This document shows, piece after piece, positions 10,160 through 60,009 of a stretch of 64,000 nucleotides of DNA. Position numbers and translations under genes: made by a program. The stretch lies in the NCBI GenBank assembly GCA_008690995.1, contig VRMN01000002.1, positions 1,488,001-1,552,000 on the forward strand, written 5' to 3'. The notes below the pieces were generated by a model that ran no database searches, was not told where the DNA came from, and was given only the letters and a program-made list of their open reading frames with translations. Source of the stretch: Porphyridium purpureum (lineage: Eukaryota > Rhodophyta > Bangiophyceae > Porphyridiales > Porphyridiaceae). The number at the start of each line of letters is the position of its first letter. Position 1 is the first letter of the stretch.

Positions 10160-11452
10160 ATGCGCTCTGGGCTGCTGCGGGCTTCGGCCCGAGGCGCGAA
10201 GATGCTGCTGGCCGGGTCTCGCGCCGGGGCGACAGGCTGCGCCGGCATTCGGTCGGGATTGGTCGCGTCGTCGTCGTCGTCTCCGTTCGGGGCGGGCTCC
10301 CAGCGCTTGATGCGATGGGCGGTGGCAGTGAACCCGATGGAGCCCAACTGCGCTCGCGCGTTCGGGTCATCCGTTCCGGAAACCGCGCCGCCGAGCGACG
10401 GCGTGATCAGCACAAACAAGGCTGAGCTGCGCTCGACGGTTCGCACAGTTTTGGAGGCAATGAGCGAGGAGACTGGCACGGATGATGATGACTGGCACAT
10501 AGACTACTCCCCGCCGTTCGCCATTCTGGAGCAACCTGCGCCAGACTTTGAAGCGCAGGTCGCCACGCCGGACATGGAGATTGAGAACTTTGCGCTCAGT
10601 TCGTTGCGGGGTAAGTGGGTGGTGTTCTTCTTCTACCCGAAAGACTTTACCTTTGTCTGTCCCTCCGAGATCATTGCATTCTCGGACGCCGCGGAAAAGT
10701 TCCGCGCGATAAATACTGAGATTGTGGCATGTTCCACGGACACGGCTGAAGTGCATCTGGCATGGATGCGCACGCCGCGTGCTCACGGTGGCTTGGGCAA
10801 AATGGACATCAAAATCGTCGCAGATCAGACAAAGTCGATCTCGGCCAAGTATGGCGTGCTCAAAGAGGACGCCGGTGTTGCTTTCCGAGGTCTCTTCATT
10901 ATTGCGCCCGACGGAGTGCTCAAGCAGATCACGCTGAACAATCTGGACATCGGCCGCAGCGTGGATGAGACGCTGCGCTTGGTTCAGGCGCTTCAGTTTG
11001 TCGCTGAAAACGGAGTGGTCTGTCCTGCGGGATGGAAGCCCGGCGACAAAGTGATGAAGGGCTCGTATGAGGGTTCGCGCGAGTACTTTGCAGAAATGTA
11101 TGGCGGGGAGGGCTCCGGCGATATGGTGGAAATGGCGCCGTCGCTCAAGAAACTCACCACGCCAGAAGATATCAAGAAGGCATTGGCAAGCGACCAGAAG
11201 GTCGTGCTCGACTACTACGCTGATTTTTGCGGCAAGTGCAAGCAGCTTGCTCCCACGCTTGAAAAGCTCGCAAAGCAGCACACCGGAATCAAGGTCTATA
11301 AGGTGGACACGGAGGCGCCAGCGCTGAAAGAGAAGCTTGCAGATGATGTCACTGCCCTTCCCACCTTGCGCTTCTATAAGGGTGGTTCCCAGGTGAACGA
11401 GCTGGTTGGCTACAAGCCCAACAAGGTGACCAGCGCGTTCGAAGAGTTGTGA
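10160..11452 (+). CDS. peroxiredoxin-thioredoxin fusion, probably organellar
   Basis: This 430-residue protein joins a typical 2-Cys peroxiredoxin to a thioredoxin domain. Residues 1-112 form an Arg/Ser/Ala-rich leader ending in an acidic patch (TDDDDW), consistent with organelle import. The peroxiredoxin domain (about 120-315) has the peroxidatic cysteine C167 in FTFVCPSE and the resolving cysteine C288 in VVCPAGW. A thioredoxin domain follows (about 330-430) with the active site FCGKC at 356-360 and the conserved cis-proline segment TALPTLRFYKGG. Peroxiredoxins reduce peroxides and are recycled by thioredoxin, so this enzyme may carry its own reductant, leaving only one outside electron donor to be found. 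The site has CGKC for the usual CGPC, and Phe for Trp before it. ATG at 10160. Confidence 0.93.
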   Translation: MRSGLLRASARGAKMLLAGSRAGATGCAGIRSGLVASSSSSPFGAGSQRLMRWAVAVNPMEPNCARAFGSSVPETAPPSDGVISTNKAELRSTVRTVLEAMSEETGTDDDDWHIDYSPPFAILEQPAPDFEAQVATPDMEIENFALSSLRGKWVVFFFYPKDFTFVCPSEIIAFSDAAEKFRAINTEIVACSTDTAEVHLAWMRTPRAHGGLGKMDIKIVADQTKSISAKYGVLKEDAGVAFRGLFIIAPDGVLKQITLNNLDIGRSVDETLRLVQALQFVAENGVVCPAGWKPGDKVMKGSYEGSREYFAEMYGGEGSGDMVEMAPSLKKLTTPEDIKKALASDQKVVLDYYADFCGKCKQLAPTLEKLAKQHTGIKVYKVDTEAPALKEKLADDVTALPTLRFYKGGSQVNELVGYKPNKVTSAFEEL

Positions 11453-22512: not shown

Positions 22513-24159
22513 ATGCAGCTGTGTGCGCAGGCCGACGCCAGGCTGAGGCTCAGGCGCGCTGGCGCCAGCGGCGCCGCGAGCCGCGGCTCAATATGTACGT
22601 CAACGCGGCAGGTGTGGGGCGCGAGTGCGGGGGATGGGGAAGCAGGAGCGGGCGTGCCTGCAGACGGAGGAGACGGACCAAGCACAATTGATGGCAGCGG
22701 AAATGGGGGCTCTGCGTCTGGGGTCGGGGCGGGGTCGGGCACTGAGGATGGCGGCTCGAGTGGTGGCGGAGTGGAGGATGCAGGCGCGCCACTCGCGAAT
22801 GGCGGGACGTTGCTGTCCGAGGGAGTGTCGAATGAGCCACGGAGCTTATCTGAGCTGACGCCCAAGGAAATCGTGGCCGAGCTGGACCGGTACATTGTAG
22901 GGCAGGCTGATGCGAAACGCGCCATGGCGATTGCCCTGCGCAACCGTTGGCGCCGCAAGCAGCTTCCCGAGAAAATGCGCGACGAAGTGATGCCCAAGAA
23001 CATGCTGATGATCGGGCCGACTGGCGTGGGCAAGACAGAGATTGCGCGGCGGCTTGCAAAGCTTGTCGACGCACCTTTTATCAAGGTGGAGGCAACCAAG
23101 TTTACTGAAGTGGGCTTCCATGGCCGAGACGTGGACCAAATCATTCGCGACCTGCTCGAAAATGGCATCAGCCTGGTGAAGCAGCGCCACCGGCGCAAAC
23201 TCAAGGCGCAGCTTGAGCGCCAGGTGGAGGACCGTTTGCTCGACGAGCTCGCGGGAGTGAATGCGCGCGACACGACTCGCGACAGCTTCCGAACGCTTCT
23301 GCGAAATGGTGACCTGGAGGATCGCGAAATCGAAATTGAAGAGTCGAGTCGGCCCAAGGTCCCCCACATTTTGCAGGACGTAACCCCAGGGCAGTCGGAC
23401 GTGCTACGCCACCTAGACAAGATGCTGACGGTATCGCGCTCTGGGGGTACATCCGGGAATAAGCGGCTCATGTCGGTCAAAGAGGCTCGCACAGTGCTGG
23501 AGGAAGGCGAGGCTGAGAAGCTTATCAATGATGACGCAATTTTGCGGCAGGCCATTGAAGCGACCGAGCAGGACGGCATTGTCTTTATTGATGAGATCGA
23601 CAAGATCTGCACGCCGTCTGGATACCGGCATGGCGCAGACGCGTCCAGCGAGGGCGTGCAGCGCGACCTGCTACCGTTGATTGAGGGCAGTATCATCAAC
23701 ACCAAACGCGGAAATATCAACACTGACCATATTCTGTTTGTGGCCAGTGGTGCGTTTCATGCATGCAAGCCTTCCGATCTGATGGCCGAGCTGCAGGGTC
23801 GTCTCCCGATCCGCGTGGAACTGAAGGGCCTCACTGAAGAGGACATGTTTAGAATCTTGACCGTGCCGGAGACGAATCTGGTGCAGCAGCATATTGAGCT
23901 GATGCGTACTGAGGGCGTAACGCTGATCATTACCGACAGCGCGCTTCGCGAGATTGCGCGTGTTGCCGCGGAAGTGAATCGCAATGTTGAGAACATTGGC
24001 GCACGGCGGCTGCATACGGTGCTCGAGCGCATTCTCGAGCAAGTGAGTTTCAATGCGCCTGAAATGAAGGGCCAGACCATCACCATTGACACTGTAGATG
24101 TCAAGGGCTCGCTGAGTGACATGCTGATGAAGACGGATCTTACCAAGTACGTGCTGTAA
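22513..24159 (+). CDS. hslU: HslU (ClpY) ATPase of the mitochondrial HslVU protease
   Basis: This 548-residue AAA+ unfoldase feeds substrates to the HslV peptidase. After about 110 residues of presequence and Gly-rich linker, the core begins with LTPKEIVAELDRYIVGQ. The Walker A motif is GPTGVGKTE (K174), the Walker B motif is VFIDEIDK, and a sensor and C-terminal domain follow (ENIGARRLHTVLE). The core is complete and of bacterial size. The pore loop reads GFHG (201-204), where Escherichia coli HslU has GYVG. The frame extends upstream to a GTG at 22273; the first in-frame ATG is 22513. An out-of-frame ATG frame just upstream looks like a better mitochondrial presequence, so the true N-terminus is unsettled. 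HslV is not in the window. Confidence 0.93.
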   Translation: MQLCAQADARLRLRRAGASGAASRGSICTSTRQVWGASAGDGEAGAGVPADGGDGPSTIDGSGNGGSASGVGAGSGTEDGGSSGGGVEDAGAPLANGGTLLSEGVSNEPRSLSELTPKEIVAELDRYIVGQADAKRAMAIALRNRWRRKQLPEKMRDEVMPKNMLMIGPTGVGKTEIARRLAKLVDAPFIKVEATKFTEVGFHGRDVDQIIRDLLENGISLVKQRHRRKLKAQLERQVEDRLLDELAGVNARDTTRDSFRTLLRNGDLEDREIEIEESSRPKVPHILQDVTPGQSDVLRHLDKMLTVSRSGGTSGNKRLMSVKEARTVLEEGEAEKLINDDAILRQAIEATEQDGIVFIDEIDKICTPSGYRHGADASSEGVQRDLLPLIEGSIINTKRGNINTDHILFVASGAFHACKPSDLMAELQGRLPIRVELKGLTEEDMFRILTVPETNLVQQHIELMRTEGVTLIITDSALREIARVAAEVNRNVENIGARRLHTVLERILEQVSFNAPEMKGQTITIDTVDVKGSLSDMLMKTDLTKYVL

Positions 24160-29592: not shown

Positions 29593-30657
29593 TTAAGGTT
29601 CAATCCAATTTCTCAGCTCTACAGTAGCGCAGCCCATGTCCTCCCTCCATAAGTGCTGCGCGTCTTCCAGAATAATTAGATCCATGTTTCTGCGGTCTTG
29701 CTGCTCGTCCAACGCGCTCCTGCACAACCTGGCCGCACCCCACAAGGGTGCAGTTCGCCCGTCAAAGGTTATGCAAGTCTCGTACCGACCGGCGCGCGGG
29801 AAAAAGTTGACGATGTCAGTAAGAATCAGACCCTTGCTTCCGTCCACGTGGACTTGCGATCCCGACCATTGATTCAACAAGTGTATGCTGTCGGAAGGGG
29901 CAACCACACGCCCGCGCAATCTGTAGTAGCGCCCCAGCAGTGCCTTTGCCTCACGAACATCGCCGTAGGTCTCGAGAAGCTCGCGGACACGCGTGCTCGA
30001 CACCTCGAGCTCGTGCATCCGGATCTTCTCAATGACGTCAACTTGAAGTCCGCGCGGCTTAGCGAGCTCGCACAGGGTGTCGGCACTGCCCTGTGCCTTA
30101 AAGCCGAAGCGCCAGTCGTATCCACACACCACTCCTGAAGCATGGAACCGTTCAACGATGACTTGGTCGATGAATTGCTCAGGACTCAAGGAGCGTATGT
30201 CGTCGAAAGGAAGGGTTTCACATCGAATGTCCTTGCCCAACTTGCGACCCCACTCGGCCAGAATATCGTTACGCTCTGCTTCCCAGAGCATGGGCCGTCG
30301 TCTCGGGTCCCAGCCCAGCACTTTGCCCATCCCAGAGAATGTCAACAGCACCGGCGTGCCGAGCCGGCAAGCGCTTTGCAGCAATTGGAAATGCCCCAAG
30401 TGCAATGCGTCGAATTTCCCGGGCATCAAAATCCAGGGCTCGACGGCTGGCGAATGCGTCGAGTTCAAAATCGCGCGGCTCCGCGCAGTGGCCGCGCCAT
30501 CGCCTTGCTGCTGACGAAACTGCTCTTGTGCGCCGGAAAGAGACCGCGAGCTGCAAACATACGGTTTGGCGCGCCCCCGCCGTCGACACGGACGCGGGTG
30601 CTCGCACACGTCACTGCGTGTGCGCAAGCTACCGACCCCAGCTCCTATGAAAGCCAT
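29593..30657 (-). CDS. RIBF: plastid-type FAD synthetase (RibF N-domain)
   Basis: This 354-residue protein starts with about 75 residues rich in Arg, Ser, Gln and Ala, compatible with plastid import. The nucleotidyltransferase domain of RibF follows: GKFDALHLGHFQLLQ at about 85, then VCGYDWRFGFKAQG, then SSTRVRELLETYGDVREAKALLGRYY. This domain adenylates FMN to FAD. The last 110 residues do not show a complete riboflavin kinase domain, so the protein looks monofunctional like plant RIBF1/RIBF2. The codon at 30669 is TTG; the first ATG is 30657. It is divergent from the methyltransferase gene, with 300 bp between ATGs. Confidence 0.87.
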   Translation of the reverse strand: MAFIGAGVGSLRTRSDVCEHPRPCRRRGRAKPYVCSSRSLSGAQEQFRQQQGDGAATARSRAILNSTHSPAVEPWILMPGKFDALHLGHFQLLQSACRLGTPVLLTFSGMGKVLGWDPRRRPMLWEAERNDILAEWGRKLGKDIRCETLPFDDIRSLSPEQFIDQVIVERFHASGVVCGYDWRFGFKAQGSADTLCELAKPRGLQVDVIEKIRMHELEVSSTRVRELLETYGDVREAKALLGRYYRLRGRVVAPSDSIHLLNQWSGSQVHVDGSKGLILTDIVNFFPRAGRYETCITFDGRTAPLWGAARLCRSALDEQQDRRNMDLIILEDAQHLWREDMGCATVELRNWIEP

Positions 30658-33755: not shown

Positions 33756-34697
33756 TTAGCTACGGAGGTGGCCCGAATCTTTCAGACGCTCCTCCATGGA
33801 CACCAAAGCCGCCTCGGAGGCTTCCTGGCCTGGGCTCTTAACTTCTTCAACGCTCTTAACCTCGGGAATGTAATGCATGAGCATGTTCTGCACGCCCATT
33901 TTGAGTGTGACGGACGAGGACGAGCAGCTCGAGCATGCGCCTTGTAGCTCGACTTGAACGACACCTGTGGCAGGTTCAAAGCCGCGGTAGATGATGCTCC
34001 CTCCGTCTTCCGCGACGGCGGGCTTGACGCGGGTCTCAAGCAATTCCTTAATCATCGCCACGACCTCGGAATCCTCCGGCAGGATTGTGGTGTCGGTGAT
34101 AACTTCCTGGCCCTCTACATGGTCTTCAAGCACTGGCTCGTTGTTACTGAATGCCACGGTGATATTTTCAAACAGCTCTGGCTTGAGTACCGCCCATTCC
34201 ACCTCGGGGTCCTTCATGACGGTGATAAAATCTGCGCCCAGAAACACGCCCTTGACCCCTTCGATGACGAGCAGGCGGCGAGCCAGAGGGCTGTTCCCTG
34301 CGTCCCTCATGCTCAGAAACTCAACGCTTGTTCCGTTGGGGGTCACCGGCACACCGGGCACAAACTTGAGCGCGTGCTCATTTGGTGTGGGTGTGGTCTG
34401 AATATACATGCTACGCGCGCCCGCAGCACGCCTCACCTTTGCGGGACTCACGCCCCACTCCCCCAACGCGTTCAGACCATTTGAACCTGCTGGAAATGCG
34501 TTCCGCGCACCAGGCAGGCGGCCGTGTCTTCCCGCAGTGCCTTTCCACATTGCCGACGAGGAGGCGTGTGTCACACAAGTCGCCCGCTGCTGCAGCATTC
34601 CAGCGCCTGCCATTCCCCCTCGCAGGCGCGTCCACATCCCACTCACTGTTGCCGCGGCCCTCCCGCGCGGCGGCACCCCTACCATCCTTCCATACAT
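33756..34697 (-). CDS. NFU1: NFU1-type iron-sulfur cluster scaffold
   Basis: This 313-residue protein has an Arg/Gly/Ala-rich mitochondrial-type presequence of about 95 residues. The Nfu N-domain starts MYIQTTPTPNEHALKFVPG (human NFU1 has MFIQTQDTPN) and continues with ARRLLVIEGVKGVFLGADFITV. The C-terminal NifU-like domain carries the cluster-binding CSSC (C255, C258). NFU1 passes 4Fe-4S clusters to lipoyl synthase and respiratory enzymes. The frame is open to a GTG at 34832 through a GA-repeat leader; the first ATG is 34697. It is divergent from the copine-like gene. Confidence 0.93.
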   Translation of the reverse strand: MYGRMVGVPPRGRAAATVSGMWTRLRGGMAGAGMLQQRATCVTHASSSAMWKGTAGRHGRLPGARNAFPAGSNGLNALGEWGVSPAKVRRAAGARSMYIQTTPTPNEHALKFVPGVPVTPNGTSVEFLSMRDAGNSPLARRLLVIEGVKGVFLGADFITVMKDPEVEWAVLKPELFENITVAFSNNEPVLEDHVEGQEVITDTTILPEDSEVVAMIKELLETRVKPAVAEDGGSIIYRGFEPATGVVQVELQGACSSCSSSSVTLKMGVQNMLMHYIPEVKSVEEVKSPGQEASEAALVSMEERLKDSGHLRS

Positions 34698-52465: not shown

Positions 52466-54481
52466 ATGGAGCAGATGATTCGGAGGAGGTTCACGTCCTG
52501 TGACGAAACCAGCACGGGGACGGAGAAGAGAGCGGAACAAACCATTTTGAATGGAGACATTTCTTACAGTCCGGATGGCGCGGCCGCTCTGTCGTCTCCA
52601 AAGAGAGCAGACGCCGCAAAGAGCGGGGAGCGAAACACCGAGGACGCCGCGCAGCGTAGTTCAGTTGTCGAGGCCGTGAGGGAAATGCTGCGCTCGTTCA
52701 AGACGGGGAATGCGGGGGTTCCCTCGCCAGCCCCCTCAACGCCGCATGGTGCGGACGCTGATGCCCACCATAATTTCAGTGAAGAGGGTTCCCTTCAGGG
52801 GATTGGTCCGCGACGCCAAAGCAGTTTGAGTTATGACTTGCTAAGCAAGTTTGAAGGAACACCGCGCGGAAACTTGCGCAGATTCCGATGGCCTTTGTTG
52901 GCCCTCATTACTTCGTTTCTGCTCTTTTACCTGATGTTGTACGCGCTTGTTCGGCTGTACATCGTCGGGTACGAACTTCTTTCGTTCCTGCTCATGGGTC
53001 AGAAACGACGGCTTCTGCTGGAGCTTAGCAGCACGTCAAGCTACTCAGAGTGGGCTAGTGTGGCGCAAGAACTAGATACTCTGGAAAAATATGACGCGTG
53101 GAAGAAAAACAATGAAAGTCCGTACTACGACTCGGCACTTGTTCTTGAACTGATCAACAAGTTGGAAGCGGCAAACGCGGAAAACAATGTGGAGAGGCTC
53201 ATGGAGACGCTAGGCAGCATCTACAATCAGAATCTCTCTGGTCTAGGCATTGACAACTCGATTTTGTACACGGAGGCAAATTTCGGGACCAAGTTTTTGA
53301 TCGATCGCTTTGTGGTGTGCGTCGTGGAGGCAACGCTCATCGTCTTTCAAAGCGAGACAATGAGTCCCTTCCAAAAGCACAAGTTTTTCCGCAAGTGCAT
53401 CCAAGCTTACGGGAAAAGCGCGCTCTGCTTATCGTCGGGCGGGTACATGGGAATGTACCATTTTGGCGTGTGCAAAGCGCTTCTCGAAGAAAAGTTGATT
53501 CCGACTGTTGTAAGTGGTTCCTCCGCCGGGGCCATGGCGGCCGCAATCATTGCGACCCGCACGGATGAGGAATTGAGGGAGTTTTTGCATCCGTCGATGC
53601 ATCAGTACTTTACTGCATGTGACGAGTCATGGGTCCGTTTTATTTTGCGATACCTATCGGTTGGAGCGGCCTTTGATACGTCTCGATTTTACGTGAAGAT
53701 GAAAGCTGTCACCTTTGGCGATATGACATTCCAGGAAGCGTATGAGAAGACGGGTCGGACCCTCGCGATCACAGTTACCAGCACGCTCAAGTATGGTGCG
53801 CCGGTGATTCTGAGTCATGTGACTGCTCCAGATGTGGTAATATGGAGCGCAGTGGTGGCCAGCTCGGCAATGCCAGGGCTCTTGAAGCCGGTGCAGCTCT
53901 TCCGAAAGCGGGCGGACGGCAGACTGGAACCGTTTTCCAGCTTTGGCATGGCGTGGTCCGACGGTGTGATCAAGAACGATATTCCCAAGGAACAGCTTTC
54001 GCAGCTGCTGAACGTGAATTGGTTCATCGTGAGCCAGACGAACCCGCATGTAGTGCCATTTATGTACCAAAGTAAGGGCTCGATTGGAGACCCCAACTTA
54101 AGACGGCGGGGCCATGGATCGGGACTTCATGGCGGCTTCTTTTTGAGCACCATGGAGGCGCTCTTGCGATTGGAAATGCGCAAGTGGATTACCCTCATTC
54201 AAGAGCTTGATTTGCTACCGCTCATTTTTGGCGTAGACTTTAGCAAATTCGTGCTGCAGCAATTCACCGGCCAGGTCACGATCGTTCCAAAACGTGGCCT
54301 CAGAATATTCCATGACTACCTGCGTATCATTCGGGACCCAGACTTTGCCGACATGGAGCAGTATCTCACGCAGGGCGCTCGCTTTACGTGGAAGGCCATC
54401 GCCATGATCCGAAACCATCTCATCTTGGAGCAAACCCTGGCCCAATGTGAGCGCGAGCTTGCCGAACGGTTAGCCGGTTAG
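52466..54481 (+). CDS. SDP1/TGL-like patatin-domain triacylglycerol lipase
   Basis: This 671-residue protein has a membrane helix at about 137-170 (WPLLALITSFLLFYLMLYALV), a DUF3336-like region, and a patatin domain from about 310. The oxyanion loop is LSSGGYMGMYHFGV, where SDP1 and Tgl3-5 usually have LSGGG. The nucleophile S353 is in GSSAG, and the catalytic Asp D499 is in WSDGVIKNDIP (SDP1 has DGS), followed by NVNWFIVSQTNPHVVPF, the SDP1 hallmark. Such lipases sit on oil bodies and start storage-oil breakdown. ATG at 52466. Confidence 0.92.
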   Translation: MEQMIRRRFTSCDETSTGTEKRAEQTILNGDISYSPDGAAALSSPKRADAAKSGERNTEDAAQRSSVVEAVREMLRSFKTGNAGVPSPAPSTPHGADADAHHNFSEEGSLQGIGPRRQSSLSYDLLSKFEGTPRGNLRRFRWPLLALITSFLLFYLMLYALVRLYIVGYELLSFLLMGQKRRLLLELSSTSSYSEWASVAQELDTLEKYDAWKKNNESPYYDSALVLELINKLEAANAENNVERLMETLGSIYNQNLSGLGIDNSILYTEANFGTKFLIDRFVVCVVEATLIVFQSETMSPFQKHKFFRKCIQAYGKSALCLSSGGYMGMYHFGVCKALLEEKLIPTVVSGSSAGAMAAAIIATRTDEELREFLHPSMHQYFTACDESWVRFILRYLSVGAAFDTSRFYVKMKAVTFGDMTFQEAYEKTGRTLAITVTSTLKYGAPVILSHVTAPDVVIWSAVVASSAMPGLLKPVQLFRKRADGRLEPFSSFGMAWSDGVIKNDIPKEQLSQLLNVNWFIVSQTNPHVVPFMYQSKGSIGDPNLRRRGHGSGLHGGFFLSTMEALLRLEMRKWITLIQELDLLPLIFGVDFSKFVLQQFTGQVTIVPKRGLRIFHDYLRIIRDPDFADMEQYLTQGARFTWKAIAMIRNHLILEQTLAQCERELAERLAG

Positions 54482-54628: not shown

Positions 54629-56551
54629 ATGGCGTTCCAAGTACCAGTGCTGTTGCCTTCGTCGCACATAAAGTCTCGTGAAAGCTGTAGTTCGATGTTC
54701 GTGGGCGGGGTGCGCACGTTACACGCTCGCGTGGCAGCCGCCCGCGCGCGACGGCTTGCGAACCACCATCATATTCGGTGCAGTGCCGCGCAGCAGGGCG
54801 TTCCTGCGGGACTGAAGCGGGCGGCGCAGCAGCTCTCGAATGAGCCAGACGCGCGGGCTCGATGCGCTCTACTCGTCAAATGGGCAGACGAGAACTCCCT
54901 GCCACAAGCGTCACGGTTGAAGGACATGCCGGCGTTGCACAAAAGTGCTGCGACCAGGGTGCCTGGGTGCACAAGTGTGACTTACGTCCAGGCTCGAGTG
55001 GTGGCGCCTTCTGACCCGCAAAAAGGAGAATCACGTCAGGAGATTGTTCTGTACGGCAGCTCAGATGCCAAATTGACGACCGGGCTGCTCCGCATACTTG
55101 CGGACGGCATGGCGCAGTGTTCTGTGGACGAGATACTTGCCATGGATGTTGGCGAATTTGCGCGGAGCGCTGGTCTGTTGGATGCATTGACACCGTCCAG
55201 AAATAATGGACTGCGCAATATCGTTCAGCTCATCCAGCAACAGCTTCGTGAGGAAACGCCGGATCCTAGTCAGGTTGTTCGCAATGGCCAGGCTTCGAAT
55301 ATGAAATCGGCTGTTCCATTGTCCTCTGTAGATAGTACAATGGACGATATACTGCACGGACGGTACTCGGGCGAGACGCGCGAAGAAGTCGCGGTGCTGT
55401 TGTCCGGTGGGGTCGACTCATCAGTCGCTCTGCGGCTCGTGCTAGAACAAGGCTACAAAGTGGTCCCTTTTTACTTGAAGATATGGCTCCAGGACGAGCT
55501 ATCCCATCTCAACGAATGTCCGTGGGAGGAAGATGTGGCCTATGCCACAGCAGTATGTGAGCAAGCCGGGCTTCAGTTGCATACGCTCGATTTGCAGCAC
55601 GACTACTGGGATCAGGTCGTGTCTTACACCATTTCAGAGGCGCGCGCAGGGCGGACGCCGAATCCAGACGTCATGTGCAACAGCCGCATTAAATTTGGGG
55701 TATTCCTGGATCGCGTCGGAAAGCACTTCAAACGGGTGGCGTCAGGTCATTACGCACGCATTGAGATTGATGAGACAGTCCCGGGGAAATTATTATTAAG
55801 CCGGAGCGTAGATACGCACAAGGACCAGACCTACTTTTTGGCAAACCTAACAACTGCGCAACTGTCGAAAGCTATGTTCCCCATCGGCATGTACGACAAG
55901 AACACCGTGCGCATGCTGGCGGAACGCTTTGACTTGCCGAACAAAAGCCGCAAGGATTCGCAGGGCATTTGCTTTCTGGGAAAGCTTCCGTTCGATGCCT
56001 TTCTGGAGCATTATTTGGGCACGCAGGCAGGAGCTCTTGTTGACTATGACACTGGTATTCAGCTGGGGTCGCACCGCGGCTTTTGGTTTTACACGCTGGG
56101 CCAGCGTAAAGGGATTGGACTTGCAGGAGGGCCCTGGTTCGTGGTCTCGAAGGATCCGCAGCAGAATATTGTGTACGTGAGTAACAAGTACGATGCCGAG
56201 GATAAGGAGCGCGACTCGTTTGGAGTACAGCATCTGAATTGGATCGGGCGCGCCAGCGAGGAAGCCTCATTATTGGAGACGCCAACGCAAGACCTGATAG
56301 TGAAGATCCGGCACGGCCCGAAACTGCACAAGTGTACCTTGTCCCTTGATGCGCTTGACCCGTCGCGCGGTAGCGTGAAACTTGAAGAGCGCAACAGTGG
56401 AATTGCTCCCGGGCAGTTCGCTGTCTTTTACAAGGGTCCCGTGTGTCTAGGGTCGGGGGTAATATCGACCGACCATGGCCTTGCTTCTGCGCCTCCGCAA
56501 ATTACCGGATTCGCACCAAAGAAGCTGCAGGCGCACTTCGCCGCTGACTGA
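54629..56551 (+). CDS. MnmA: SufE-MnmA fusion, organellar tRNA 2-thiouridylase
   Basis: This 640-residue protein has a targeting-like N-terminus of about 65 residues (Arg/Ala-rich). Residues about 68-210 form a SufE domain: RCALLVKWADENSLP, the sulfur-accepting C114 in VPGCTSVTYV, LTTGLLRILADG, and LTPSRNNGLRNIV. After a linker, an MnmA/TrmU domain begins near 250: PP-loop LSGGVDSSVAL, catalytic C350 in MCNSRIKFG, persulfide C448 in SQGICFLG, and TLGQRKGIG. MnmA thiolates U34 of tRNA Lys, Glu and Gln; SufE accepts persulfide from a SufS-type desulfurase. The fusion would hand sulfur directly to the tRNA enzyme, probably in the plastid (SUF pathway). All catalytic cysteines are present. ATG at 54629. 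Confidence 0.93.
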   Translation: MAFQVPVLLPSSHIKSRESCSSMFVGGVRTLHARVAAARARRLANHHHIRCSAAQQGVPAGLKRAAQQLSNEPDARARCALLVKWADENSLPQASRLKDMPALHKSAATRVPGCTSVTYVQARVVAPSDPQKGESRQEIVLYGSSDAKLTTGLLRILADGMAQCSVDEILAMDVGEFARSAGLLDALTPSRNNGLRNIVQLIQQQLREETPDPSQVVRNGQASNMKSAVPLSSVDSTMDDILHGRYSGETREEVAVLLSGGVDSSVALRLVLEQGYKVVPFYLKIWLQDELSHLNECPWEEDVAYATAVCEQAGLQLHTLDLQHDYWDQVVSYTISEARAGRTPNPDVMCNSRIKFGVFLDRVGKHFKRVASGHYARIEIDETVPGKLLLSRSVDTHKDQTYFLANLTTAQLSKAMFPIGMYDKNTVRMLAERFDLPNKSRKDSQGICFLGKLPFDAFLEHYLGTQAGALVDYDTGIQLGSHRGFWFYTLGQRKGIGLAGGPWFVVSKDPQQNIVYVSNKYDAEDKERDSFGVQHLNWIGRASEEASLLETPTQDLIVKIRHGPKLHKCTLSLDALDPSRGSVKLEERNSGIAPGQFAVFYKGPVCLGSGVISTDHGLASAPPQITGFAPKKLQAHFAAD

Positions 56552-56674: not shown

Positions 56675-59600
56675 CTAGATTCCCTTCGATCCGATCCTCC
56701 TCTTCTTTGACTTTTTCTTTATCGCCAGTCTGTGCTCCACGTTCACGCGTTTGATCGCTTCACGGAACGGAGCTTGGTCTCGTTCGGCAAGATCCTGCCC
56801 CCAGACATCAAGTGCTGCCATGTTGCAGCCTAGTAGCTGCTTGAGCTCATTTGTACATTTGCGAACCAGGAACGCGAGCTGCTGAAGCAGTTCGCGCTCG
56901 CCACTTGCAATAATTTGGTTCTGGTAATTTCGCACAAGAATAATAGCCATGCGTACCACCATTTCGCCGTGCAGAATGGCCGTAGCCGGGTCTCGCAAGA
57001 ACCCAACACAGTATTCTAATAGGGATCGCGCCTGCGAGTAAGACAGCAACATCAAGGCTGACTCTACTTCCGCGACTTTGATCCGGCGCAGGCTGCGCAG
57101 CACGTACTGATCTGGTTGCAAGCCAAGCAAAAGCATTGAAGGCTTATACATGGATGGATTGACGCCTTGCTCTTCTTCCTTACGTTCCTGCTCCTTTGCT
57201 GCAAGCTCCAACGCTTCCATGAGCGCCTCGCTTCCGCGCACACTTTCAAGCGTGCGCTTCACGGCCACTGAGCTCTGTCCGACGGCTTGTTGCGTTCCCG
57301 CGTCGGGCTCGTACATGATCAGAGAGTGGCGATTGGCTCTTCCGTTGTCATCATCATCCAGCGCACCGAGTGCCGGGTCTGTGAGAAGATCACGCTCGAA
57401 CATCTCGTCCAGTCGTTGCTCGCGCTCATCCTCCAAAAACATTTGCTCATCCGACCGTCGCCACACCCGGATTGCTCGGTCGCTGCTTACAGAGGCGACC
57501 ACTTCGCCGTCTGCACTGGTTGAAATGGCCCAGCACTCGCCGTGATGGCGGGTCAAATCGCAAATCAGTTCGAATCGATCACCATCCCAGTATTTGAGTC
57601 GCCCATCACGCGAGCCGCTGAAAAAGTAGTGCGTGCCGGCCTGCAAGCGCACATTCAAAACCGAGTCATCGTGTGCTCGCGCCAGGCTCTTCCGCAGATC
57701 GCCAAAGTGCATCCCCCAAATCTTGATTGTCTTGTCGGCGGACCCCGTCACCAGCATTTCACCATCTGACGAAATATCCATGCTCAGCACGGGCAGCTTG
57801 TGGCCGTAAAAGCTCACAAAAGGAGCGAGTGTGTCTGCATAGAAGGCCCGGACAGTACTATCTAGCAAGGATGCCAGAAGCATCTTCCCGTCTGGCGAGC
57901 ACCGCACGCAAAGCACTTCGTCTGTTAATTCGGCCGTGCGCTCAAGTTCCAGCAACCCCTTGCTCGATTCGTCGTCATCTCCCGCCACGTGCTTCTCAGC
58001 GCGGTCGGCATGAAAGCGCCAAAACCTGATTTTCTTGTCCGCTCCACCGGAAATCAAGGTGTAGGAGCCGGACAGATGTTGCGCTTGCTTTGGGTGCCAC
58101 ACTATGCTCCAAATGGCACCAGTGTGAGCTTGCGGAATCGAGCACACAGACTCACCTGAGCCTGTGCGAAGTACTTGGAGTGCGCCTTCCTTCGTTGCGA
58201 CAATCACCAGACTGCGTCGGTCGGGCACGAACAGACAACCAAGCGCATGGCCATCTGTGGTCATTGACCGCAGGCACTGGCCACGCGAAAGCTCAGACAA
58301 ACTCCATACTTTGAGAGTCTTTGCTGCGCTCGCCGTCACTAGGAATGACTCGTCGTGGCTCATTGCCAGCGCTCGCACGTCTCCGCGGTGTCCCATGCTG
58401 TCAAAGGAGCCTCGTTTTTCCATATTTTCAAACAGGCCGGTCTCTGCCAAAGGCACGAGAGGCAAGTCAATAATCTCCAAGCCGTTGCTGTGACAATGGA
58501 TCAGTAGCCGTGAGGACGTGAGACCTGGCGAAGAAGAAGATCCACGGCTAGAGCGGATATCTAGCACAGAGATGGCATGTACGCGAGATTTGAGACGGAC
58601 GAGACGAATCGCAGCCAATACGTCGATCGCAATCGTATTTTCTGTGTCATCTGGCGTGTACGTGCCTGCAACCATCTTGTCGCCTTTTTCTTCCTCGTCT
58701 ACTTCCTCGTCCAAAAGTAGCCGCTTGCTCGCAGACGACCCTGGTTTCTCAGTAAGCTTTCTTTTTGCGCGCTCTTTCGCGCGCCTCGCCCTGCGTTTGC
58801 GGTGGGCTTCTGCCGCCAAGACATCGCGGATGGAAAAACATTCCACACTGCGGTCCCCACCCACCACAACTAAAGTTCCAACATAGCTGGCGTCGTTTCC
58901 AGACGCATGCGTCCTTTCCATGACATCCATATCCACCACGCGCGCAGAACTCCTCCTGCGAACCAAGCCAATGAATTTTAGCAGTTCTCCTTGAGCGCTC
59001 AAGCCATCCAATCCGTTCGTATCCCTCCTTTCCATCTTGTAAACTCGCAGCTCGCTATTGATGGATCCAGACACGAGAAATGCACCATTGGCAACGATAC
59101 AGTGCGCCCAGATTTCCCCGCGGTGACCCACAATGGTCTGAACGCAAAATTGAGAGCGCGTATCAAAGACTCGCATGACGCCATCCTTGGAGGACGAAAT
59201 GAGCAAATTTTGGCCCTCGCTCCCACTGTTGCAAAAGGAAAGAGCGGTCACTGCATCTGAATGAGCTGCACGCAGGCGAAACATGCCACACTCAGCGACC
59301 ACATCCCACACAATGATGTCGCCGTCGTTCGCGCCAGAGGCCAGAACGCCGGACGCTTGATCCCACGCCAGAGCAGAAATGCCTGCATAATGGGCGTTCA
59401 AAGTCATTCTCGGTGGCGCTGAATCCATGCCGAGGGCGCTTGTATGCATGTCTGCACGGCTCTCTGACTCCAAAACATCCAAAGGCCATATCCGAATGGA
59501 GCCATCAGCGTAGCCTGCAGCTACATCACGACCTGACGGCGCCACTGCGATCGCCGTCACACTTCCAGCGCGCGCAGTGGCCTCATTCGCCAGCCGCACT

Positions 59601-59812
59601 ATTAGTGACGTTGTTTTGATATCCCAAACAAGCAACGCGTCGACCGCAGGTGTCACAACGCACTGTCTTCTCGCGCTAGTGTTTCCTTTTGCTTTTCCAC
59701 TCTCCAACGCATGATGATGGCCCACCACGGCCGCACGGCCGATCAACGAGCCAGCGCTCGCTACCACGCCGAATGTTGAGACGAGCTCGTACCGCAGATA
59801 CGCCTTCACCAT
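56675..59812 (-). CDS. UTP12: WDR3/UTP12 small-subunit processome protein
   Basis: This 1045-residue protein begins MVKAYLRYELVSTFGVVAS, matching the start of WDR3/Dip2 (KQYLRYVASAVFGV in human), which decides the start at 59812 over an upstream ATG at 59926. About twelve WD40 repeats form two propellers (for example DGSIRIWPLD, LVTGSADKTIKIWGMHFGD and RDGRLKYWDGD), with a charged insert at about 345-400 (RKRRARRAKERAKRKL). The C-terminal Utp12 domain (about 880-1030) ends in a lysine-rich tail (KKKSKKRR). WDR3 is part of UTP-B, which binds the U3/5' ETS pre-rRNA. It is divergent from deoxyhypusine synthase (197 bp) and convergent with SufE-MnmA (123 bp). Confidence 0.95.
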   Translation of the reverse strand: MVKAYLRYELVSTFGVVASAGSLIGRAAVVGHHHALESGKAKGNTSARRQCVVTPAVDALLVWDIKTTSLIVRLANEATARAGSVTAIAVAPSGRDVAAGYADGSIRIWPLDVLESESRADMHTSALGMDSAPPRMTLNAHYAGISALAWDQASGVLASGANDGDIIVWDVVAECGMFRLRAAHSDAVTALSFCNSGSEGQNLLISSSKDGVMRVFDTRSQFCVQTIVGHRGEIWAHCIVANGAFLVSGSINSELRVYKMERRDTNGLDGLSAQGELLKFIGLVRRRSSARVVDMDVMERTHASGNDASYVGTLVVVGGDRSVECFSIRDVLAAEAHRKRRARRAKERAKRKLTEKPGSSASKRLLLDEEVDEEEKGDKMVAGTYTPDDTENTIAIDVLAAIRLVRLKSRVHAISVLDIRSSRGSSSSPGLTSSRLLIHCHSNGLEIIDLPLVPLAETGLFENMEKRGSFDSMGHRGDVRALAMSHDESFLVTASAAKTLKVWSLSELSRGQCLRSMTTDGHALGCLFVPDRRSLVIVATKEGALQVLRTGSGESVCSIPQAHTGAIWSIVWHPKQAQHLSGSYTLISGGADKKIRFWRFHADRAEKHVAGDDDESSKGLLELERTAELTDEVLCVRCSPDGKMLLASLLDSTVRAFYADTLAPFVSFYGHKLPVLSMDISSDGEMLVTGSADKTIKIWGMHFGDLRKSLARAHDDSVLNVRLQAGTHYFFSGSRDGRLKYWDGDRFELICDLTRHHGECWAISTSADGEVVASVSSDRAIRVWRRSDEQMFLEDEREQRLDEMFERDLLTDPALGALDDDDNGRANRHSLIMYEPDAGTQQAVGQSSVAVKRTLESVRGSEALMEALELAAKEQERKEEEQGVNPSMYKPSMLLLGLQPDQYVLRSLRRIKVAEVESALMLLSYSQARSLLEYCVGFLRDPATAILHGEMVVRMAIILVRNYQNQIIASGERELLQQLAFLVRKCTNELKQLLGCNMAALDVWGQDLAERDQAPFREAIKRVNVEHRLAIKKKSKKRRIGSKGI

Positions 59813-60009
59813 GACGATACACCACGCCTGATGTCCAGAGAACGTCGCCGTCTCTGTGTCGCTTGGTCGTGCCGCCGTCCACGCCGAGCGCTCCTTCTCT
59901 TCGATCAAAATCATCAAATGGTTCATTTTTACTATGAATACCTATCGCGGGCCGCGGACGTGCAGCTGTGAGCGCGGCACGGGGCAGCTGCTGCTGGACG
60001 TCCCTGGCG

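Follow-up and report, generated by a model that had tools for sequence, protein, structure and literature searches.

A single open reading frame in an apparently red-algal nuclear genome joins an N-terminal SufE-type domain to a complete MnmA tRNA thiouridylase, with the catalytic residues of both domains in place and a linker between them that reads as coding sequence. The frame runs uninterrupted from an ATG in the window, i.e., the whole stretch of 64,000 nucleotides that was analysed, and its product is probably a nucleus-encoded, plastid-targeted tRNA U34 2-thiouridylase that has its own sulfur carrier (probability roughly 0.7). The presence of SufE and a complete MnmA in one frame, claimed in a first-pass annotation of this DNA, is borne out by the listing of open reading frames, Pfam, and NCBIfam, and a script placed the three cysteines that it had singled out at residues 114, 350, and 448. 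The features of the frame are as follows.

54629–56551, + strand: SufE-MnmA fusion frame, 640 codons.
54629–54784, + strand: N-terminal extension, residues 1–52, basic, starting MAF and ending HIRCS (sequence; weak codon-usage score).
54806–54892, + strand: two predicted helices, residues 60–71 and 75–88 (model, pLDDT about 70).
54908–55243, + strand: SufE domain PF02657, residues 94–205 (Pfam; SufE matches in the PDB; alignment with E. coli SufE and CsdE).
54968–54970, + strand: C114, which aligns with the sulfur-accepting cysteine of E. coli SufE (C51) and with its counterpart in CsdE (alignment).
55244–55384, + strand: linker, residues 206–252 (coding by codon usage; residues 213–248 of low confidence in the model).
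55385–55984, + strand: MnmA PP-loop (HUP) domain, residues 253–452 (Pfam, NCBIfam, PDB).
55403–55420, + strand: PP-loop motif SGGVDS, residues 259–264 (alignment).
55667–55678, + strand: DxxC motif, D347 to C350, equivalent to D99–C102 of E. coli MnmA (D347 and C350 invariant in 49 rows).
55970–55972, + strand: C448, equivalent to C199 of E. coli MnmA and the expected persulfide cysteine (invariant in 49 rows).
55997–56182, + strand: MnmA middle PRC-barrel domain, residues 457–518 (Pfam).
56213–56464, + strand: MnmA C-terminal beta-barrel, residues 529–612 (Pfam).

The MnmA part is canonical, with the SGGxDS PP-loop, the DxxC cysteine, the second catalytic cysteine, and the three-domain layout of the family. 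In Pfam, tRNA_Me_trans covers residues 253–452 with 230.9 bits, followed by tRNA_Me_trans_M (457–518) and tRNA_Me_trans_C (529–612), all over their curated cut-offs, and the NCBIfam model of MnmA, TIGR00420, spans residues 253–612 (E=6.2e-112; 373.9 bits, cut-off 236.95). In the PDB, the whole protein matches E. coli MnmA (2der, E=1.5e-78). An MnmA alignment scan of genome contigs matched at least 596 stretches, the best 80 of which were used; in an alignment of 49 rows, made up of the fusion and 48 of these 80, residues S259–S264, D347, C350, and C448 are invariant. A full-length structure model built on the same alignment has a mean pLDDT of 72.1 and a pTM of 0.61, with the MnmA part mostly at 90 or above, residues 213–248 below 50, and residues 1–58 of low confidence. 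The first five Foldseek ranks for this model are all MnmA structures with TM-scores by target of 0.86–0.90 (2det, 0.90; 2hma, 0.88). The relative placing of the domains in the model is uninformative, because the alignment contained neither another fusion nor any further SufE sequence.

The SufE part is recognizable and diverged. PF02657 matches residues 94–205 (E=3.9e-20; 72.3 bits against a cut-off of 27; profile positions 21–121 of 121), and the domain holds its acceptor cysteine directly after a glycine, as expected of the SufE/CsdE family. The NCBI equivalog model of SufE gave 42 bits against a cut-off of 160, and for this reason the domain is called SufE-type but diverged. The first part alone matched E. 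coli SufE in the PDB (1mzg, E=3.7e-4); the whole protein gave no SufE match in the PDB at E≤0.001. The domain is 24% identical to E. coli SufE and 23% to CsdE. All three proteins share the Gly-Cys at the acceptor position and the Ser-Arg within LTPSR, and SDA and the entire LTPSR are shared with E. coli SufE but not with CsdE. The W-E-x-K-Y...LG stretch common to both E. coli proteins is altered in the fusion, and the alignment with them places an insertion after the acceptor strand. Modelled alone with AlphaFold, the SufE region came out poorly (pLDDT 43); in the full-length model, its helices reach about 56–73, and the C114 stretch and the strands about 35–50. The helices at residues 60–71 and 75–88 probably correspond to the N-terminal helices of SufE. 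Among the Foldseek matches of the full-length model, SufE 3g0m appears weakly at rank 45, after other PP-loop enzymes (E=1.2e-3; TM-score by target 0.46; rmsd 13.1).

A codon-usage score, for which 23 other frames of the window (14895 codons) served as training set, gave the linker of 47 residues (206–252) 0.16 in frame and −0.46 and −0.62 in the two remaining forward frames. For 47-codon coding stretches sampled from the same 23 training frames, the mean score is 0.23 (SD 0.13), with 30.8% at or below the 0.16 of the linker; among out-of-frame stretches sampled from them, 0.3% score at least as high. Two genes or a hidden intron are unlikely because the codon usage of the linker is that of coding sequence. 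The few exact 5′-splice-site and branch-point patterns sought on the + strand between 55141 and 55420 were absent. Two genes, or a frame joined in error, with separate translation of MnmA from M225 or M238, which both lie within the linker and would offer start codons, are highly improbable: besides the coding signal between the domains, an MnmA begun there would presumably lack a transit peptide, and a SufE-type domain ahead of MnmA has already been reported in apicomplexans. The SufE-MnmA frame is probably carried on a single mRNA.

By Pfam, the frame has the order that characterizes the apicomplexan fusions, in which a SufE-type domain precedes MnmA within the same frame. TgMnmA (TGGT1_309110), the nucleus-encoded and apicoplast-located tRNA thiouridylase of Toxoplasma, was reported in 2022 to carry a SufE domain (PMC9420914). 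As in the fusion, this domain (519–589) precedes the tRNA_Me_trans domains (812–952, 968–1140, and 1489–1560) (PMC9420914), but TgMnmA is far longer than 640 residues and resides in a secondary plastid. The N-terminal extension of P. falciparum PfMnmA was reported in 2023 to contain a SufE-like structural domain, and the methods of that paper list the MnmA regions of Babesia microti, Theileria annulata, Toxoplasma gondii, and Eimeria tenella for the same alignment figure (PMC10219651). The SufE-like domain of PfMnmA was found by structure modelling, whereas that of the fusion is plain by Pfam. The fusion itself stands, but priority goes to the printed Toxoplasma (PMC9420914) and P. falciparum (PMC10219651) reports, so that the notion of a first-ever SufE-MnmA fusion was dropped. 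The statement of the first-pass annotation that plant SufE fusions involve BolA and NadA agrees with two reviews, which name SufE-BolA and SufE-NadA (PMC8003979; PMC3721309). Algal SUFE1 (SufE-BolA) and SUFE3 (SufE-NadA) are described, with SUFE1 listed for Galdieria (PMC8003979), and the main text of that review does not contain the word tRNA. SUFE1 and SUFE3 are plastid proteins that, like the fusion, carry SufE N-terminally, but their partner is BolA or NadA (PMC8003979; PMC3721309); Pfam found neither of these domains in the 640-residue protein, which sets it apart from SUFE1 and SUFE3. No report of an algal SufE-MnmA fusion was found in the literature searched, which comprised main texts, with most subscription papers beyond reach. 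What is new here is the occurrence of the architecture reported from apicomplexans in a probable red-algal nuclear genome.

From the residues kept, a route from SufS through the SufE domain to MnmA is reasonable. A plastid SufS-type cysteine desulfurase would load a persulfide on C114, and the flexible linker of 47 residues, whose length probably allows C114 to come up to C448, would let the SufE domain hand the sulfur to MnmA. The MnmA part would adenylate C2 of U34 via the SGGVDS loop and, with C350, complete the 2-thiolation of plastid tRNA Lys, Glu, and Gln. The plastid location, SufS as donor, sulfur transfer within the protein, and these tRNA targets are all likely rather than observed. 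In bacteria, where MnmA draws its sulfur from TusABCDE or YrvO, the enzyme and its catalytic residues are the same, but there the carrier or the desulfurase is a separate protein; it is plausible that the fusion removes the need for Tus.

Work on P. falciparum bears on this relay from both sides. The apicoplast is disrupted when SufS is lost but not when the separate SufE is lost (PMC10219651), a pattern expected if MnmA obtains its sulfur via its own SufE-like domain or directly from SufS. The same paper proposes sulfur from SufS via the SufE-like domain and also favours direct transfer from SufS. B. subtilis MnmA, in which the N-terminal extension is missing, replaced PfMnmA in every attempt when accompanied by its own desulfurase and in one of four attempts without it (PMC10219651). 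Because MnmA alone sufficed in that one attempt, a SufE domain is not strictly needed for MnmA beside SufS, and this replacement is the strongest result against a relay from SufS over C114 and C448 to U34. The difficulty of replacement by B. subtilis MnmA alone also fits with a SufE domain that helps SufS to feed MnmA. On the side of the fusion itself, the diverged SufE domain, the weak structural match to SufE, and the predicted confidence of 35–50 around C114 weigh against the relay as well. The SufE domain could instead be a docking or activating module that holds SufS and boosts its turnover, with sulfur passing from SufS directly to MnmA and no persulfide on C114. Such a module would accord with the enhancement of SufS activity by SufE (PMC10219651; PMC8300815) and with the direct transfer proposed for P. 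falciparum (PMC10219651). Against it, C114 and its glycine are both kept, and docking alone would not require them; this reading is considered unlikely.

Some MnmA proteins bind a [4Fe-4S] cluster; those with a DxxC motif are the cluster-independent type, although reports on E. coli MnmA disagree. A third use of the SufE domain would be to supply sulfur for such a cluster on MnmA rather than for tRNA, a role of the kind suggested for plant SUFE3 (PMC8003979). With D347 and C350 forming a DxxC motif, the fusion would belong to the cluster-independent type, and this possibility is judged very unlikely. The relay through C114 is the preferred reading.

In the contig scan (the best 80 of at least 596 matched stretches), a phylum survey, and a tree, the best bacterial matches to the MnmA part are 48–56% identical and come from scattered phyla (Planctomycetota, Babeliales, Ignavibacteriota, Gemmatimonadota, and Spirochaetota by record title or tree label), with MnmA of Bacteroidota next at 40–47%. 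In a tree of 53 rows (the fusion, 48 of the 80 bacterial loci, E. coli, and three more), the fusion groups with the MnmA of scattered phyla, is separated from the Gammaproteobacteria/Bacillota type with 100/100 support on each side, and sits on a long branch without a supported sister. The tree does not tell the source of the algal MnmA because cyanobacteria and eukaryotes are missing from its sample. In one of two phyla surveyed (that of G001), the matches listed form two groups: nine genomes have E≤1.8e-112 and 48–56% identity to the fusion protein, and the next best has 7.2e-59, with the other matches listed at 32–39%.

No bacterial SufE-MnmA fusion was found in the samples examined, which comprised plasmids, 80 loci, 199 and 148 genomes, and 12 regions, with cyanobacteria outside them. 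Among 76 plasmid records with matches, none contains a location at which 80% of the query is covered; the SufE domain alone matched seven plasmid records at 24–31% identity. At the 80 MnmA loci, some of them cut by contig ends, no stop-to-stop MnmA frame exceeded 426 residues and no frame matched a three-sequence SufE profile at E≤1. Among the five genomes with the nearest MnmA, SufE occurs in one, as a separate frame of 146 residues. In the phylum of G001, a search with the whole protein found matches in 184 of 199 genomes; of the matches listed, two start at residues 179 and 184 and the others further on, so that the SufE domain is spanned by none of them. A profile that recovered SufE in three positive loci detected none at E≤1e-3 in nine MnmA frames of this phylum that are long or start early, picked by eye from a larger number and excluding the one that starts at 179. 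In the other phylum (that of G003), SufE is present in 87 of 148 genomes; the two frames there of more than 400 residues look like out-of-frame read-through over a neighbour read as sufS. At loci L091 and L092, sufE directly follows a sufS-like gene, and its open frame extends back through that gene out of frame, mimicking a fusion. Exact-peptide scans confirmed no relatives of the SufE domain in genome contigs, and neither an exact-peptide scan of the MnmA domain nor a SufE alignment scan confirmed any in viral contigs.

The window has a GC content near 55%, 28 frames of at least 300 residues, some of which are antisense overlaps, and a PAP_fibrillin gene (Pfam); fibrillins are plastid proteins. 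These traits fit an intron-poor nuclear genome of a plastid-bearing organism. Cyanidioschyzon merolae has 27 introns in 16.5 Mbp (PMC8831791), and the window may be linked to that group. Upstream of the fusion, a patatin/DUF3336 protein (Pfam) on the same strand ends at 54481, and the downstream frame (56675–59926) lies on the opposite strand. Scans of the window for tRNA and Rfam families were empty. Elsewhere in the window, an iron-sulfur biogenesis gene encoding Nfu_N and NifU domains lies about 20 kb from the fusion (33756–34697, − strand). A 430-residue frame (10160–11452, + strand) combines a peroxiredoxin (AhpC-TSA and 1-cysPrx_C) with a C-terminal thioredoxin domain and has a presequence-like N-terminus. 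An AAA ATPase (Pfam AAA_2) with a long N-terminal extension (22513–24159, + strand) reads as HslU/ClpY.

Residues 1–52 probably form a plastid transit peptide; their codon-usage score is only −0.02, yet it is the highest among their six frames. The N-terminus, MAF...IRCSA, is compatible with a transit peptide of the red type, as an N-terminal phenylalanine is described as a requirement of cyanelles and red-derived plastids and as present in Porphyra precursors (PMC2222254). A FAD synthetase-domain protein of the window (29593–30657, − strand) also begins MAF.

The first-pass annotation suggested a general red-algal design, which the fusion may represent. In the simplest history, the fusion would be an ancient feature of the red plastid lineage, handed on to the apicoplast, and the relict plastid of apicomplexans may have inherited the SufE-MnmA pairing from a red alga. 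Even odds are given to the fuller account, in which the fusion had a single origin, at an early stage of the plastid lineage of red algae, in an MnmA outside the Gammaproteobacteria/Bacillota type, and reached apicomplexans with the red plastid. How plastid MnmA receives sulfur without Tus is of wider concern, and further studies have been called for on what lets SufS feed MnmA (PMC10219651). Expression plasmids for PfMnmA could not be built owing to its AT richness and low complexity (PMC10219651); a compact homologue encoded in DNA of about 55% GC may allow the relay to be tested in vitro. If red-algal descent is confirmed, the SufE-like domain of apicomplexans would be an old plastid trait. 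If the single red-algal origin is true, that domain in malaria parasites and Toxoplasma would be an inherited red-algal sulfur relay, and plastid tRNA thiolation would have been freed from any separate carrier.
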